DNA of 53,518 nucleotides from Nitrospirota bacterium. GTDB lineage: Bacteria; Nitrospirota; Thermodesulfovibrionia; UBA6902. Positions 11,921-52,320 of this stretch are shown here, piece after piece. The notes beneath the pieces are model-generated. The model was not told the origin of the DNA. It searched no databases and saw only the letters and a program-made list of their open reading frames with translations. How positions within the stretch are numbered: position 1 is the stretch's first letter; each line of letters begins with the position of its first letter. Location: assembly GCA_016215115.1 (NCBI GenBank), contig JACRLN010000028.1:1-53518 (forward strand). Direction: 5' to 3'. Both the position numbers and the translations under genes were made by a program.

Positions 11921-12733
11921 CTACTTAAGCGATTCTATAATTTCCAGCGCTTCCCTGCTTCTCTTGATATCACTGTCCTTCTCAGCAATAATTCTGAAAT
12001 GCTTCAACGCCTTATCTTTTTCACCGGTCCTGAGATAAGCATTTGCAAGTTCCCAATGGGCATCCATATAGTCTGACATGATGCCGATTGCCTTCTTATA
12101 TTCTTCTATAGCGGCTCTATCATCTTTATTCTTGACATAAACAAGACCGAGAGTATAATTGGCCATAGGAAAAACCGGACTTCTTAAAAGGGCTTCTTTA
12201 ATAGAATCTTCTGCTTTGGGATACTCGCCTTTTTTATAATACGCATATCCCATGCTTAAATACGCCTTCTCAGGCGAACGGTATAAGGGATTATTTAAAG
12301 CAGCCCTGAAGTATTTGACAGCCTCGTCCCAGTTTTCAACTTCTAAATATACCACGCCAAGATTATTCATCGCCTCCGAAAAATTTGGATCTGCTGTTAT
12401 TGCACGCTTATAAAAAGATATCGCTTCATTATATTTTCTAAACAGCGCGCTTATATATCCCAGTCGATTAAGCGCTTCAATATTTTTGGGATCAAGTAAT
12501 ATTGCTTTCTGGAATTCAGTATACGCTTCAGTAGGCTTCCCGCTGCTTAAATAAGAATCTCCCATTTTGTTGTAAGCCTCTGCCTGTTTTGTTTTTTCCG
12601 TATCCTTGACAGTAGCACATGCAGAAAAGAATAGAATACAGAATACAACATACAGAACACAAACAAAAAAAGCCCGGTATCGAAGTTTTGAGTTCTTTAT
12701 TCTGATAAAAATCTGGTATCTCTGTTCGTTCAT
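11921..12733 (-). CDS. TPR-repeat lipoprotein, PilF/PilW-like
   Basis: The 270-aa protein has a signal peptide ending in a lipobox (FFSAC, Cys at about 39) followed by about five to six tetratricopeptide repeats (about 50-265; e.g. AEAYNKMGDSYLSSGKPTEAYTE). PilF/PilW lipoproteins assist outer-membrane assembly of the type IV pilus secretin. Pilus motor genes occur elsewhere in the window, and pilF-rodZ order is conserved. The hydrophobic core of the signal peptide is encoded by a tandem 7-bp repeat (12629-12663), so it is probably recent and repeat-derived. Confidence 0.82.
   Translation of the reverse strand: MNEQRYQIFIRIKNSKLRYRAFFVCVLYVVFCILFFSACATVKDTEKTKQAEAYNKMGDSYLSSGKPTEAYTEFQKAILLDPKNIEALNRLGYISALFRKYNEAISFYKRAITADPNFSEAMNNLGVVYLEVENWDEAVKYFRAALNNPLYRSPEKAYLSMGYAYYKKGEYPKAEDSIKEALLRSPVFPMANYTLGLVYVKNKDDRAAIEEYKKAIGIMSDYMDAHWELANAYLRTGEKDKALKHFRIIAEKDSDIKRSREALEIIESLK
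12629..12663. repeat. Coding heptamer repeat within a lipoprotein signal peptide
   Basis: Five 7-bp units on the + strand: GAATAGA, ATACAGA, ATACAAC, ATACAGA, ACACAAA. Read on the minus strand they encode the hydrophobic part of the TPR lipoprotein signal peptide (FVCVLYVVFCILF). Confidence 0.75.
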
Positions 12734-13605: not shown

Positions 13606-13639
13606 AAGCTGATAGCTGACAGCTTACAGCTATCAGCTT
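13606..13639. repeat. Heptamer repeat (AGCTGAT/AGCTGAC/AGCTTAC/AGCTATC)
   Basis: Period-7 AGCTnnn units forming an inverted repeat in the gap between the macrodomain and zincin genes. Confidence 0.75.
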
Positions 13640-13686: not shown

Positions 13687-14070
13687 ATGGCTTTCGGGGT
13701 CAGCAGAGAAAATTTTGAAGCGCTTGCTGAAAAAGCTTTGGAGACATTGCCGGAAGAATATAAAAAATATTTTGTAAATATCACAATAATCATAGAAGAT
13801 TATCCGGGCAATGAGGAAATGAACCGGCTAAACACGAGAAAAGAACTCCTGCTCGGTCTTTTCAGTGGTGTGCCGTATTCCCGGAAAGGTGGTTTTTTTG
13901 ATATACCTTATCCTCTACCCGACAAGATAATTCTCTTTCAAAAGAACATTGAACATATATGTTCGAATGAAAAAGAACTTGTCGAACAGATCCAAAAAAC
14001 CCTTATCCATGAAGTCGGCCATTACTTCGGCCTTTCAGAGAAGGATTTGAGGGGATATGAGAGCTTATAG
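13687..14070 (+). CDS. Minimal zincin-like metallopeptidase
   Basis: The 127-aa protein matches the small zincin-like metallopeptidase family. The zinc-binding HEVGHYFGL motif (HExxHxxG) lies near the C-terminus (about 112-120), and the family region NEEMNRLNTRKELLLGLFSGVPY precedes it. Substrates are unknown. The last codons (Ser-Leu-stop) lie inside a heptamer repeat at 14061-14096, so the C-terminus may have been reset by that insertion. No obvious ribosome binding site. Confidence 0.85.
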   Translation: MAFGVSRENFEALAEKALETLPEEYKKYFVNITIIIEDYPGNEEMNRLNTRKELLLGLFSGVPYSRKGGFFDIPYPLPDKIILFQKNIEHICSNEKELVEQIQKTLIHEVGHYFGLSEKDLRGYESL

Positions 14071-14096
14071 CTATAAGCTGTAAGCTATAAGCTTTT
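14061..14096. repeat. Heptamer repeat at the zincin stop codon
   Basis: Period-7 units of the AGCTTAT/AGCTATA/AGCTGTA type, self-complementary, containing the stop codon of the upstream gene. Confidence 0.7.
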
Positions 14097-21800: not shown

Positions 21801-21888
21801 AAGCTGTCAGCTATCAGCTATTAGTTTAATACGGGCACGGCACTGCCGTGCCCCTACGTGTTCTGGATTCCCGCCTCCGCGGGAATGA
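21801..21888. repeat. Composite repeat: heptamers, GGGCACGG hairpin and dRS3-like palindrome
   Basis: AGCTGTC/AGCTATC/AGCTATT heptamers (21801-21825), the hairpin GGGCACGGCA...CCGTGCCC (21833-21852) and a 20-bp ATTCCC-N8-GGGAAT unit (21867-21886) lie side by side upstream of emrA. Confidence 0.7.
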
Positions 21889-21893
21889 CCTTA

Positions 21894-21938
21894 ACTCATA
21901 TCTCATAATTCATATCTCATAATTCTTATTACTCATAC
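21894..21938. repeat. Heptamer repeat (CTCATAT/CTCATAA units) at the end of the MacB-like permease gene
   Basis: Period-7 units CTCATAT, CTCATAA, TTCATAT, CTCATAA, TTCTTAT abut and include the stop codon of the permease gene (stop at 21929-21931). Confidence 0.65.
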
Positions 21939-23161: not shown

Positions 23162-23312
23162 TTTACTAAGTGATGAAGAGGGGAAGCGAGGAAGTTATGA
23201 AGCAAGAAAAACATAAATGCGCTTTTCAAATTCTTCACTTCTTCACTCTTTCTCTCCGTCACTTCATCACTTCCTGACTTCATCGCTTCCTGACTCCTTC
23301 ACTTCATCGCTG
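23162..23312. repeat. Octamer repeat cluster (CTTCATCG/CTTCCTGA units), partly coding
   Basis: Units such as CTTCATCA, CTTCCTGA, CTTCATCG, CTTCCTGA, CTCCTTCA, CTTCATCG follow each other with period 8, with inverted GATGAAG/GGAAG copies at the other end. The part from 23267 encodes the C-terminal tail of the MacB-type ATPase. Confidence 0.7.
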
Positions 23313-29654: not shown

Positions 29655-29735
29655 AACTTTAAAGGATTATGGATTAGGGGTTAAGGATCGGTGTTTTCCT
29701 GATCTCTACTACTTAATCCCTACCCCCTGATCCAT
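29655..29735. repeat. Tandem repeat of GGATTA/GATCC words across the end of the RND adaptor gene
   Basis: Words of the type GGATTATGGATTAGGGGTTAAGGATC and an inverted set (TTAATCCCTACCCCCTGATCC) flank a short gap. The right part encodes the last residues of the adaptor (MDQGVGIK, then stop). Confidence 0.55.
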
Positions 29736-30857
29736 ATTTTTTATCTCCACCTTCGCCCCAGGCATAAGCCGTATCTGGCCGTCGGTTACTACCTGCTCTC
29801 CAGAAATCAGTCCACTTTCGATAACAATCATATCTTCGTATGTGATGCCGACGTTAACCGGACGAAGCTCTGCTGAGCCTTCCTTCACAACAAAAACGAA
29901 CTGCCCCTTCTGTCCTGTCTGCACAGCCTGGGAAGGCACTACAATAGCATCGGGCTGTGTTTTTAGGGTCATTATTACATTTACAAATTGTCCCGGCCAC
30001 AGTCTTTTATTTTTATTTGTAAAAGATGCCTTCAGCTTGATGGTCCCTGTTGCAATATCCACTGCGTTGTCTATAAAAGTTAGCACGCCTTCTTCCGGAT
30101 CTTTCTCAGCATTTGATAAGATTGCTTCGACCTTGAGTTTCCCTCCTGATACATATTTTCTTATTTCTGAAAGATCCTGTCCCGGGACAGAGAAGTTCAC
30201 ATACACAGGTTGAATCTGGTTTATAACCACCATCGACAAGTCATTCGCCTTGATCAGATTACCTTCATTAGTGATGAGATTCCCTGTCCGGCCAGTGAGG
30301 GGAGAATAAATATAGCAGTATTTGAGCTGCAGCTGCGCATTTTCAACAGCAGCCTTGGACGCGTTTACTACAGCTTCCAGGGCAGCGGCGGTGGTGCGGA
30401 TCTGATCATACTGCTCCTGGGCTACATAGCCTTTTTTCACAAGCTCCGCGTAGCGGTTAACTTCCACACGGGCATTTTCGAGCTGTGCATGGTCCTTAGC
30501 AAGGTTTGCTTCCATTTGCTTCAGAGCAGCATCGTACGGGCGGGGATCAATAGTGAAAAGGAGATCTCCTTTGTTCACGTCCTGACCTTCCTTAAAATGG
30601 ACGCGCATAAGCACTCCCCCTACCTGGGATTTAATCCCCACCGTTGAATAGGTTTCCACATTGCCTATGGCGCGGATCTGCACAGGTACGGATTTACCGG
30701 CTACGGTAGCGACCGTTACCGGCACAGGGGGTGCCTTTACAGGCTGCTTTGACTTATTATCCGAACATGCCGGGAGAAACAGAAAACAGTAAACAGTAAG
30801 CAGTAAGCAGTAAGCAGTAAGCAGTAAGCGTTTAGAAATTAATGTATTATTCCGCAT
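29709..30857 (-). CDS. RND efflux membrane fusion lipoprotein (MdtA/AcrA-like)
   Basis: The 382-aa adaptor has a lipoprotein signal peptide (lipobox LPAC, Cys at about 31). Lipoyl motifs (GVLMRVHFKEGQDVNKGDLLFTIDPRPYDAAL), an alpha-hairpin (about 100-165) and the YIYSPLTGRTGNLITNEGNLIKAND half-motif follow. It partners the MdtC-like pump. The hydrophobic core of its signal peptide (LLLTAYCLLLTVYC) is encoded by a tandem CAGTAAG heptamer repeat, and its C-terminal tail also comes from repeat sequence. Confidence 0.93.
   Translation of the reverse strand: MRNNTLISKRLLLTAYCLLLTVYCFLFLPACSDNKSKQPVKAPPVPVTVATVAGKSVPVQIRAIGNVETYSTVGIKSQVGGVLMRVHFKEGQDVNKGDLLFTIDPRPYDAALKQMEANLAKDHAQLENARVEVNRYAELVKKGYVAQEQYDQIRTTAAALEAVVNASKAAVENAQLQLKYCYIYSPLTGRTGNLITNEGNLIKANDLSMVVINQIQPVYVNFSVPGQDLSEIRKYVSGGKLKVEAILSNAEKDPEEGVLTFIDNAVDIATGTIKLKASFTNKNKRLWPGQFVNVIMTLKTQPDAIVVPSQAVQTGQKGQFVFVVKEGSAELRPVNVGITYEDMIVIESGLISGEQVVTDGQIRLMPGAKVEIKNMDQGVGIK
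30784..30829. repeat. Coding heptamer repeat (CAGTAAG units) in the adaptor signal peptide
   Basis: Six or so CAGTAAG/CAGTAAA units. On the minus strand three heptamers equal seven codons, so the peptide itself repeats with period 7 residues (LLLTAYC, LLLTVYC). Confidence 0.85.
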
Positions 30858-31060: not shown

Positions 31061-32371
31061 TTACCGCCTCCTGACTACTGTTTTTAATAACGTTCCCGTT
31101 GCGCGTTTTAATTGTAAAATCGCAAACTGATAATCATATTCTGCATTGGCAAGTTGTCGTTCTGAAGTAACAAGCAGGGTATTTGCATCCATGACATCCA
31201 GGCTGTTTGCAAGGCCGAATTCAAATTGCTTTGACACGGCATTGTAATTATCGGCGGCATACGTTGCCTCTGCCTGGAGTTTTTCAAGAATTCCCGAAAT
31301 CGTTATCAGATTCAGATAAGCATTTTCAACCTCAACATTGATTGATTTATATAAATCCGCCAATCTGTAGTCTGCCTGCCTGAACCTTGCTCCCGCCTCC
31401 CTTACCTCCGCCTTCCTTAAGCCTCCCTCAAAAAAAGGGAAATTAAGTTTTATGCCACCGTAAATACTTTCGTTATTTGTAAAAGCCGCAGAGGGATGGT
31501 CTTCATTTCTGACGTAAACACCCTCCACAGAAACGTCCGGCCAATATGAGCCTTTTGTATATTTAATCTGTTCTCCCGCAATCTTTCTCTGGATCTCGAC
31601 TGATTTTATCTCGCTCCTTTCCGACAAAGCTGTTTGCTTGAGACCATCGAGTGTCGTTGTTGATATTGCTGACTGCTGACTGCTGACTGCTGATGGCTGA
31701 TCTTCTTTTAAATCGTAATCACCGCGGATGCCGACAGTGCGTGCAAGAACTGTCTTTGCAAGCTTAAGATTGTTTTCAGCCTTTAACAAATCCGACTGAG
31801 CGCCTGAAAGCTCCGCCTCTGCCCTCAAAAGCACCGTCTTTGTTATTTCTCCCACTTTAAGTCTGATTTTTGCTGCATCTCTGTATTTTGTCAGTCTCTC
31901 AACATTTGCATTTGCTATTTCCAGAGCCTTTTTTGCTTTTAATACATCAAAATATGCAGAAGCAACATTCAGGAGATACCCTTCTTTCACACTGTCGAGG
32001 TCAACCTTGCTTTTTACAATGGACTCTTTTGCGATTCCGAGCGCAGTCAATTCCTTGCCACTCGTGGATAAAGACTGGTTTAGGCTCAACCCCCAGGACG
32101 TGCTGTTGTCCGGCTGTATTACAAGAAGGTCCGCTGTCTTTTCCCTGCTGTAGTCCCTGTAACTTCCAAAAGCTGAGAGTTTCGGGAAAAGCACCGCCAT
32201 GGCCCTGTCTTTTTCACGTTCAGATATATATATGTCTTCTTCCGCTATCTTGATTGTCTCGCTTCTTGCAAGGGCAATTTTATAAAGGTCGTCGAGGGAA
32301 TATTCTTCCGCAAACGCAGTAAATGGGATAAGGTTCAGAAAAAAGGATAAAATTAATATTACTCTTTTCAT
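31061..32371 (-). CDS. TolC-family outer-membrane efflux protein (first copy)
   Basis: The 436-aa protein has a signal peptide (MKRVILILSFFLNLIPFTAFA) and two OEP domains of TolC type. I chose the ATG at 32371, preceded by AAGGATG; nine further codons upstream lack a ribosome binding site. A 12-residue Ser/Gln/Ala-rich segment (PSAVSSQQSAIS) in the loop between the two halves is encoded by a GACTGCT heptamer repeat. It is first after tetR and probably forms the outer-membrane channel of the RND pump downstream. Confidence 0.92.
   Translation of the reverse strand: MKRVILILSFFLNLIPFTAFAEEYSLDDLYKIALARSETIKIAEEDIYISEREKDRAMAVLFPKLSAFGSYRDYSREKTADLLVIQPDNSTSWGLSLNQSLSTSGKELTALGIAKESIVKSKVDLDSVKEGYLLNVASAYFDVLKAKKALEIANANVERLTKYRDAAKIRLKVGEITKTVLLRAEAELSGAQSDLLKAENNLKLAKTVLARTVGIRGDYDLKEDQPSAVSSQQSAISTTTLDGLKQTALSERSEIKSVEIQRKIAGEQIKYTKGSYWPDVSVEGVYVRNEDHPSAAFTNNESIYGGIKLNFPFFEGGLRKAEVREAGARFRQADYRLADLYKSINVEVENAYLNLITISGILEKLQAEATYAADNYNAVSKQFEFGLANSLDVMDANTLLVTSERQLANAEYDYQFAILQLKRATGTLLKTVVRRR
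31666..31700. repeat. Coding heptamer repeat (GACTGCT units) inside the tolC-like gene
   Basis: Four GACTGCT-like units plus a degenerate GATGGCT. They are translated as PSAVSSQQSAIS on the minus strand without disturbing the frame. Confidence 0.8.
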
Positions 32372-37297: not shown

Positions 37298-37433
37298 ACC
37301 CACTGAGTCACAGAGAAATAAACTCAGAAGCAGGAACTGAGAACTAAGAAGTAAAAGATATCCTTCTTAGTTCTTAGTTTTAAGTTCTCAGTTCTTAGTT
37401 CTCAGTTTTCCTCTCCGTGTCCTCTGTGGTAAA
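37298..37433. repeat. CACAGAG-bounded element containing a heptamer hairpin
   Basis: Left arm ACCCACTGAGTCACAGAG, right arm CTCTCCGTGTCCTCTGTGG. Between them (about 37329-37407) lie period-7 words of the TTAGTTC/TCAGTTC type in inverted orientation. It separates pilS from pilR. Confidence 0.7.
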
Positions 37434-44860: not shown

Positions 44861-44895
44861 TTCCCAATACCTCTAAATAGAGGATATTGAAGGAC

Positions 44896-44931
44896 AATGA
44901 ATAATTATAAATGAATAATGAACAATGAAAG
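44896..44931. repeat. Heptamer repeat (ATGAATA/ATGAACA/ATGAAAG units)
   Basis: Period-7 units in the nrdJ leader region; they contain ATG triplets but no open frame of interest. Confidence 0.6.
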
Positions 44932-45131: not shown

Positions 45132-47456
45132 ATGGCGGAACTGGTATCAACACAACTTGATCTAACACCGAGTGCATTAAAGGTTCTGGAGAAACGATAT
45201 TTAAAAAAAGATGAAGAGGGCAGTATTGTAGAAACTCCTGAAGAACTTTTCAGGAGAGTGGCAAAGACTGTTGCCACCGTGGAGCTGAATTATGCCAAAT
45301 CCGAAGCGGAAGTAAAGCACGTAGAAGATGAATTTTACAATCTGATGACATCATTCAGGTTTCTCCCTAATAGTCCAACACTCATGAACGCAGGAAGAAG
45401 GCTCGGGCAGCTTTCTGCATGTTTTGTTCTTCCTGTCGAAGACTCAATGGAATCTATTTTTGAGGCAGTAAAAAATGCTGCACTGATACATAAATCAGGC
45501 GGGGGCACCGGTTTTTCATTCTCCAATCTCAGACCCAAGGGTGATATTGTAGGCTCAACAAAAGGGATCTCATCAGGCCCGATTTCATTCATGACGGTTT
45601 TTGACTCGGCAACCGAGGCCATAAAACAGGGAGGCACAAGAAGGGGTGCAAATATGGGTATCTTGCGTGTCGACCACCCTGATATCCTTGAATTTATCTC
45701 TGCAAAAGAAAGCAACGCAAAACTGAACAACTTCAATCTGTCAGTAGGAATAACTGATGCATTTATGAAGGCGCTTGAGAAAAATGGAGAATACGACTTA
45801 ATAAATCCTCACTCAAAGAAACCTGTGCGCAGCCTGAAAGCCAGAGAGGTATTCAACCTGATAGTGCACCATGCATGGAAAAATGGGGAGCCGGGCATTG
45901 TATTTCTTGACAGAATGAATCAGTATAATCCAACGCCGTCGGTGGGGGATATTGAAAGCACAAATCCGTGCGGTGAACAGCCGCTTCTGCCCTATGAGTC
46001 CTGTAATTTAGGCTCTATTAACCTTGCCAAATTTGTAAATACAAATAGTGCGGAAGCACGGAAGCGTGGAAGAATAGAAGGAACTTCCGAACTTCCGAAC
46101 TTCCAGGCTTCCGAACTAATAGACTGGGACTCTCTCAGGAAGACCGTTCACAGATCGGTCCATTTCCTTGATAACGTTATTGTAATCAATAAATATCCGC
46201 TGAAGAAAATAGAAGAGGCAACAAAAGCAAACAGGAAAATAGGGCTCGGAGTTATGGGCTGGGCAGATATGCTGATACAGCTTGGCATACCCTATAATTC
46301 CGAGGAGGCCTCAAAACTTGCAACTGAAGTGATGAAATTCATCCAGACAGAAAGCAAAAAGCAATCATCCTTTTTAGCAGATGAAAGGGGCACCTTCCCG
46401 AATTTCGAGCAGAGCATTTATAGAGACAAAATGCCTCTGAGAAATGCTACCGCTACAACCATTGCCCCTACAGGGACGCTTTCGATAATCGCAGGATGTT
46501 CAAGCGGCATAGAACCGTTGTTTGCAGTTGCTTTTGTCCGTAATGTCCTTGAAGGCACAAAACTCTACGAGATCAATCCCCATTTTGAGAGCATTGCAAA
46601 AGAAAGAGGCTTCTGGGACAGGGAACTTATAGACAAAATTGCCGAAAAAGGCAGCCTGCGGGATATCAGTGAAATCCCCGATGATGTGAAAAAGGTCTTT
46701 ATTACCGCACACGATATATCTCCTCTTGATCACATAAGGATGCAGGCGGCTTTTCAGAAACATGTTGACAACGCTGTTTCCAAGACAGTTAATTTCTCGC
46801 ATAATGCCGCTCCGAAAGAGGTGGAGGATGCATATTTCCTGGCATATGGTCTTGGCTGTAAAGGCGTCACAGTTTACAGAGACGGTTCAAGGGAAGATCA
46901 GGTGCTCTCCACAGGAAAGACAAAGACAGAAGACAAAATACAGATTCCGGAACCCGGACAAAAGATAATGCCGAGGAAAAGACCTGAGGTAATCAAGGGC
47001 ACAACAAGGCTTATGAAGACAGGCTGCGGCAATTTATATGTCACCATAAATGAAGATGAGGACGGCAATCTTTTCGAGCTTTTCACACAGATGGGAAAGG
47101 CAGGAGGCTGTGCCTCAAGCCAGGCAGAGGCCATCGGAAGGCTTGTAAGCCTTGCCTTGAGGAGCAACATTGAATCTGAAGAGCTTGCTAAACAACTTAA
47201 AGGCATCAGTTGCCACAGCCCGGCATGGGCTAACGGCGGAAAGATTTCATCCTGCTCAGACGCCATATCAAAGGCTATTGAAAGATACACGGAACGCGGC
47301 GCCAAGGGGAACGGCAATGGCTCACATCCCAAAGAAGAAAAAGAGACCAGGGAAAAAATAATGCTCTGCGGAGCGTGCCCGGATTGCGGCGGAGCTGTCG
47401 AGCACGAAGGCGGATGCGCGGTCTGCAGAGATTGCGGATTTACGAAATGCAGTTAA
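45132..47456 (+). CDS. nrdJ: Vitamin B12-dependent (class II) ribonucleotide reductase
   Basis: NrdJ makes deoxyribonucleotides with adenosylcobalamin and works with or without oxygen. The 774-aa protein has RRMYL-like N-terminal segments, C97 ([12 protein letters not shown]), the glycine-rich [16 protein letters not shown], the NPCGE active-site loop (278-282; [20 protein letters not shown]), [17 protein letters not shown] and a C-terminal cysteine-rich tail (CGACPDCGG...CRDCG) for redox or zinc. Residues about 305-328 ([20 protein letters not shown]) are encoded by a GAACTTCC/GGAAG repeat and look like an insertion. GGGAGGG precedes the ATG. Confidence 0.96.
46051..46117. repeat. Coding octamer repeat hairpin inside nrdJ
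   Basis: CGGAAGCACGGAAG...GGAAG units are followed by inverted GAACTTCC GAACTTCC GAACTTCC AGGCTTCC units with period 8. The stretch is in frame and adds roughly 22-24 residues to NrdJ. Confidence 0.8.
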
Positions 47457-52238: not shown

Positions 52239-52320
52239 TTAACCATAGAGGTCACAAAGAAGCTGATAGCTGTTAGCTATTAGCTATCAGCTTATTAAAC
52301 TCTGTGTTCTCTGTGGTTAA
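52239..52320. repeat. CACAGAG-bounded element enclosing heptamer repeats
   Basis: TTAACCATAGAGGTCACAAAG at the left and CTCTGTGTTCTCTGTGGTTAA at the right frame AGCTGAT/AGCTGTT/AGCTATT/AGCTATC heptamers (52260-52292). It is 82 bp and starts 2 bases after a stop codon. Confidence 0.75.

Follow-up and report, generated by a model that had tools for sequence, protein, structure and literature searches.

The 53,518-nucleotide stretch of Nitrospirota DNA analysed here (the window) very probably comes from a genome with a dispersed family of heptamer repeats that comprises many words, is filtered by polarity inside genes and rewrites ancestral signal peptides. Orthologue comparison shows that predicted signal peptides were an ancestral feature of the tested genes, and that sister species differ in the words found in one and the same signal peptide. 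The family consists of short tandem heptanucleotide arrays of many related words, lying both within and between genes. An array inside a gene would be kept by selection solely if the encoded heptapeptide suits its site. T-rich stop-free arrays persist almost only in signal-peptide h-regions, and A-rich arrays in surface loops, in the n-regions of signal peptides and in extensions at the N-terminus; the n- and h-regions would be the most permissive coding sites for each polarity. Signal peptides evolve quickly and tolerate many sequences. The arrays would overwrite or lengthen the n- and h-regions of ancestral signal peptides while the cleavage site or lipobox stays, and candidate routes for their origin and spread are slippage, template switching, conversion or other mobility.

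Heptamer arrays in the window

A gene on the reverse strand at 11921–12733, upstream of the adjoining rodZ, encodes a PilF/PilW/Tgl-like TPR lipoprotein of 270 aa (Pfam TPR_2, 2.9e-37). Its ATG ORF has the N-terminus MNEQRYQIFIRIKNSKLRYRAFFVCVLYVVFCILFFSAC, the lipobox FSAC (Cys39) and TPRs. The predicted signal peptide spans codons 1–38 (12620–12733, reverse strand), and the predicted lipidated Cys39 is encoded at 12617–12619 on the same strand, the lipobox Cys being conserved among orthologues. An earlier note on this DNA had described the gene as a PilF-like lipoprotein with a signal peptide made of heptamers. The ORF, lipobox, TPRs and period-7 DNA under the h-region bear this description out, but the matches to the NCBIfam models for Tgl (2.9e-39) and PilW (5.8e-33) stay below their cut-offs, with 134.9 against 225 bits and 114.4 against 154 bits. 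Identity as a PilF/PilW/Tgl pilotin was therefore rejected as unproven and the name stays ‘PilF-like’, with which the adjacency of rodZ fits.

The array under this h-region is degenerate, with four coding-strand units of TATTCTG at 12633–12661 (reverse strand), as judged from Tandem Repeats Finder (TRF), codon shuffles and the register in G005, the closest relative. TRF gives about four imperfect units (4.1 copies, 77% match, score 37), not the exact five heptamers claimed earlier. In the 54 nt before the Cys codon, lag-7 identity is 0.55 (p = 0.011 against synonymous-codon redraws, p = 0.013 against codon-order shuffles), and lag 5 gives equally 0.55. Taken by itself the TPR array is weak evidence, at p of about 0.01. 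It is credible despite this because G005 has an identical four-unit TATTCTG array in the same register and because mean lag identity across 29 other TPR orthologues peaks at lag 7 (0.393) and lag 14 (0.380), with other lags at 0.27–0.35. With G005 sharing the register, a chance origin for this one array is unlikely.

The earlier note also pointed to the same arrangement at 30784, and here the evidence is much plainer. The gene at 29709–30857 (reverse strand) encodes an RND efflux periplasmic adaptor (membrane fusion protein) that scores 272 bits against TIGR01730 RND_mfp, exceeding the cut-off of 94.9, and is a predicted lipoprotein with lipobox LPAC (Cys31). At 30777–30829 on the same strand, about six units of coding-strand CTTACTG encode RLLLTAYCLLLTVYC in the h-region, which precedes the lipobox. 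TRF reports 6.1 copies with 97% match and a score of 79, and the periodicity was matched by 0/20,000 shuffles. By eye, both the TPR protein (FSAC-39) and the adaptor (LPAC-31) have the layout of an SPII signal, with a positively charged n-region, an h-region and a lipobox with invariant Cys.

Beside the adaptor, a TolC-like gene (31061–32371) carries a heptamer insert in the hydrophilic orientation, located in a loop (SAVSSQQSAIS, 31656–31708, reverse strand). Two orthologues (L197 and L203) lack exactly 7 residues, that is 21 bp or three units, a difference that would fit in-frame expansion by 21 bp.

Such a three-unit indel is one of the observations that could point to contingency loci, in which gain or loss of one 7-bp unit would shift the frame of the mature protein and turn export off as a phase-variable switch. 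A one-unit change does spare the array peptide while shifting everything downstream, and slippage is conceivable in a pure array like the six CTTACTG units of the adaptor. We nevertheless regard such a switch as unlikely: most arrays are short and imperfect, which lowers slippage, arrays also occur in the essential genes atpF, purF and argS, and among the orthologues we found none inactivated at an array. Two candidate phase-off genes were rejected. The apparent truncation of the G015 adaptor is a run of N, and in the FlgI gene of G031 (L286), whose signal peptide contains TTCACTG, the break lies far downstream of the array.

TRF found further arrays in the window. Degenerate AAGACAG heptamers occupy 46917–46958 (forward strand) of the ORF at 45132–47456, in the hydrophilic orientation, and an AGCTATA array lies at a gene end (14069–14093, no strand assigned). 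Intergenic arrays, likewise without strand, are AGCTGAC (13607–13631), AGCTATC together with CTCATAT (21802–21929), TTCTTAG (37364–37407, 6.3 copies), AATGAAT (44894–44929) and AGCTGTT/TAGCTAT (52261–52297). A period-8 array, TTCTTCAC, is found at 23231–23305, inside or beside the gene at 23267.

Period 7 across the genome and polarity of the encoded peptides

The organism, an uncultured member of Nitrospirota, has Thermodesulfovibrionia and other Nitrospirae MAGs as its closest named relatives. We counted arrays (threshold of at least 20/28) in 810 kb, or 29%, of the 2.82-Mb genome, a sample that is not strictly random, part of it having been placed around earlier hits. Within it, period 7 yields 114 arrays, compared with 35 for period 8 and 1–7 for unrelated periods. 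Period 8, likewise coprime to 3, is the sole other strongly enriched period besides multiples of 7. Sixty of the 114 period-7 arrays were classed as intergenic, a count that includes at least one truly coding array (in ApbE, L057), and 54 as coding; density is highest in intergenic DNA. The genome thus shows what is expected of dispersed heptanucleotide repeats, an over-represented 7-bp unit at many unrelated and mainly intergenic loci, though nearly half of the arrays are coding. The coding arrays sit in intact, confidently named genes (PurL, PurF, IspE, HisC, ProC, ArgS and KdsB, and also CzcA, AtpF, FlgA, FlgH and FliP, among others). A flank-to-flank search for a larger mobile element returned no common flank among the matches listed, which appear to be overlapping or neighbouring heptamer arrays. 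One 669-aa TPR protein (L060, 14317–16323) has six separate heptamer arrays with different words.

T-rich, low-complexity h-regions might yield period-7 matches by chance composition, and the TPR gene, with lag 5 as high as lag 7, is the kind of case this would produce. For the phenomenon overall we consider chance extremely improbable, and it was ruled out by the control periods, by the transmembrane and coding controls and by reversed patterns. Period 7 was seen in 3/13 lipoprotein h-regions, as listed by a strict signal-peptide finder that missed the adaptor and FlgH, but in only 1/168 transmembrane segments of like composition and 0/451 random coding segments. There are also clean arrays of 3–6 identical units, with reversed-pattern controls near zero (the reversed control of TTCACTG is GTCACTT, itself a heptamer word, and hence not empty), and lag 7 tops all lags across the orthologues.

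A unit of 7 bp shares no factor with the codon length of 3. A pure array is consequently read as the same cyclic heptapeptide in all three frames, with stops in each of them or in none, and the polarity of the peptide and its stops are set by strand orientation and word alone. The T-rich orientation gives hydrophobic heptapeptides (LLLTAYC, LFTVHCS) and the A-rich orientation hydrophilic, basic ones; the two strands are opposite in polarity, since T-rich codons specify hydrophobic residues and the complementary codons hydrophilic ones. Peptides of the LLLTAYC type are about as hydrophobic as natural h-regions. The earlier statement that any frame of these words encodes Leu/Tyr/Val/Phe/Cys is therefore right in essence for one strand, while the other strand is hydrophilic or has stops.

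The position of arrays in genes follows this polarity. In the genome sample, internal coding arrays are hydrophilic in 31/33 cases and h-region arrays hydrophobic in 7/7 (Fisher 2e-6), a sorting that among all words is forced in part by stop codons. Words open in both orientations are the cleaner test, and with these the h-region arrays are hydrophobic in 6/6 cases and the others hydrophilic in 13/14 (Fisher 2e-4). For example, CTTCTGC and TTTGCCC encode AFCLLPS when in a NosD-like signal peptide but RRQKAEG or KGKGQRA in ValRS-like, ThiL-like, GuaA-like and DapF-like genes, the names of the last four being assigned from sequence by eye and not by model hits. A-rich arrays were found in soluble loops, N-terminal extensions and signal-peptide n-regions.

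We also followed single hydrophobic words through other genomes, calling signal peptides by eye and with simple hydropathy rules. Across 296 Nitrospirota genomes, (CTTACTG)3 forms 12 distinct arrays, five outside long ORFs and seven in ORFs, and all seven of the latter are in signal peptides. Of the 14 arrays of (TTCACTG)3 in the family, 11 lie in signal peptides; the remaining three are in a prepilin leader (L280), internal to a gene (L291) and, antisense, at a gene end. Pooled, 18/20 sense ORF arrays of the two words are in signal peptides, with the proviso for this and similar counts that members are partly orthologues and not all independent. N-terminal arrays occur in 7/74 genes with a signal-peptide-like N-terminus against 6/556 others (p = 2e-4), by a looser finder whose list leaves out AtpF. 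The claim that heptamers form signal-peptide cores in unrelated genes, recurrently and independently of frame, thus holds for the TPR gene, the adaptor and further genes. The leader of the prepilin-like protein (L280, 1369–1550, Pfam N_methyl) is unusually long, and consists before GFTLVELM of two heptamer arrays, SAISYQL and then LFTVHCS.

Signal peptides among relatives

A signal peptide and lipobox Cys are present in 29/29 TPR orthologues read, most of them without heptamers. At the same site, G003 has CCCTTTG and G045 a CTTACTG-like array. Every adaptor orthologue with a readable N-terminus likewise has a lipobox signal; this contains CTTACTG, TTTGCCC, TTCACTG-like or CTGTCTG-like heptamers in some and no heptamer in others.

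These comparisons bear on the mechanism first put forward in the earlier note, whereby a mobile heptamer inserted at a 5' end would endow a protein de novo with a signal for secretion or for becoming a lipoprotein. Heptapeptides such as LLLTAYC are hydrophobic enough for this, and arrays are indeed present in signal peptides of both the lipoprotein and the Sec type. However, heptamer-free orthologues of the TPR gene, the adaptor and AtpF already have signal peptides, which contradicts creation for these three genes, and the other nameable hosts belong to families that are normally exported (ApbE, FlgH, FlgA, FlgI, TolC-like OMF and NosD). The note had proposed that distant orthologues with the same signal-peptide residues but no heptamer periodicity would speak against it; distant orthologues do keep the signal peptide without the periodicity, with residues similar in kind and not identical. 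Since a lipoprotein signal is present in every readable orthologue of the TPR protein and of the adaptor regardless of heptamers, and since words differ between sister species, the creation of lipoproteins by repeats is unsupported and the rewriting of existing signal peptides is supported. Creation de novo now seems very unlikely to us.

AtpF is the strongest case of rewriting. Among 30 orthologues, T-rich h-region arrays are present in 10/30, with six words, and A-rich n-region arrays in 19/30, with 13 words (RSQKSEV, KFQISNF, SKFKVQN and others). The AtpF tree requires at least nine changes for the h-region words and at least 18 for the n-region words, and the words cluster on it hardly more than shuffled words do. 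Orthologues with a signal peptide but without such arrays include L244, L249, L256 and L257. Sister species also bear different words in the signal peptides of the adaptor, M16, ApbE and FlgA. In FlgH, FlgA, the TolC-like OMF of L056 and the AtpF of several relatives, heptamers make up the n-region as well as the h-region, with opposite polarity in the two. Overall, n- and h-regions appear to have been rewritten by repeats several times in one genus.

Within single genomes, words recur in unrelated genes. CTTACTG is common to the adaptor, AtpF, ApbE, M16, FlgH and OMF signal peptides of G000, and TTCACTG is in three signal peptides of G008. That unrelated genes share words within a genome while the same gene differs between genomes suggests within-genome spread. 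It also counts against a more local model of how rewriting proceeds, under which each gene holds a single old array that changes by slippage, word drift and re-homogenisation in each lineage, with no movement between genes. Sister species often have related words at a given locus (CTGCTTA and CTGTTCA), as that model would have it, and the observed rewriting could be gradual drift in an old array instead of new insertions; no clean empty-site pair was found in very close strains. On balance, purely local drift strikes us as rather doubtful, and a stronger version of the rewriting hypothesis seems a little better placed, though still short of an even chance. In this version, which we put forward tentatively, an active process would spread genome-specific words, paired A-rich n-region and T-rich core arrays would repeatedly rebuild whole Sec signal peptides, and turnover would proceed by copying of DNA words and not by point mutation.

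Relation to known repeats

The closest counterpart is the TAACTGA heptamer direct repeats of marine Beggiatoaceae, Cyanobacteria and Bacteroidetes (MacGregor 2015, PMC4679880). These too are dispersed 7-bp tandem direct repeats, mostly intergenic and with no known mobility mechanism; one strand is stop-ridden and the other encodes a cyclic heptapeptide (LSVISYQ), with intragenic copies at protein edges. They differ in having one dominant word, placed within a few nt upstream of start codons, and the term ‘signal peptide’ is absent from the text of that paper. The Nitrospirota arrays, in contrast, have many words, are about half within genes and occupy signal peptides or loops according to their polarity, and TAACTGA is absent among the words listed in the 810-kb sample. 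The G-rich heptamers of Xanthomonas and Nostoc (PMC4692102) and the cyanobacterial STRR are similar in forming genome-wide tandem arrays of few heptamer units. The G-rich heptamers, however, are under-represented in coding regions and are discussed as G-quadruplexes, whereas the Nitrospirota words are not rich in G and often lie in coding sequence. Enterobacterial RU elements are mobile repeats that contribute to a signal peptide, with related proteins keeping unrelated ones (Delihas 2007, PMC2759123), but they are MITE-like elements of 103–168 bp known from one or a few cases, unlike 7-bp words in a recurrent, lineage-wide pattern.

Precedents therefore exist both for dispersed heptamers and for a contribution of mobile repeats to signal peptides. 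Rickettsia palindromic elements are selfish small repeats that lie in frame in conserved housekeeping genes and are tolerated there. They resemble the Nitrospirota arrays as small selfish repeats tolerated in ORFs, and differ in being palindromic rather than tandem heptamers, about 100–150 bp long and without a tie to signal peptides. Searching the literature on heptamers, for occurrences either in signal peptides or in Nitrospirae, we found no relevant papers apart from MacGregor 2015, PMC4692102 and Delihas 2007, and the combination of orientation sorting with recurrent rewriting appears to be undescribed in the literature searched.

The arrays offer a concrete, testable route by which repeats, selfish or mutational, may become functional protein parts, as a 7-bp word is proof against frame and the strand sets the polarity of its peptide. 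They are also a warning to annotators, for whom LLLTAYCLLLTAYC, KSEVRSQKSEVRSQ or SAVSGQQSAV in proteins signify heptamer DNA and not homology. An outer-membrane factor (L056, 15210–15348) has NPPVSPFEKEGLRGI between its RSQKSEV and LLLTAYC arrays, which looks like another dispersed repeat read as protein. PurF has a heptamer-derived N-terminal extension, SSLVTRHSSL, in the genus (L075 10584–10660, orthologues L258–L276), which is shorter or absent among order-level relatives.
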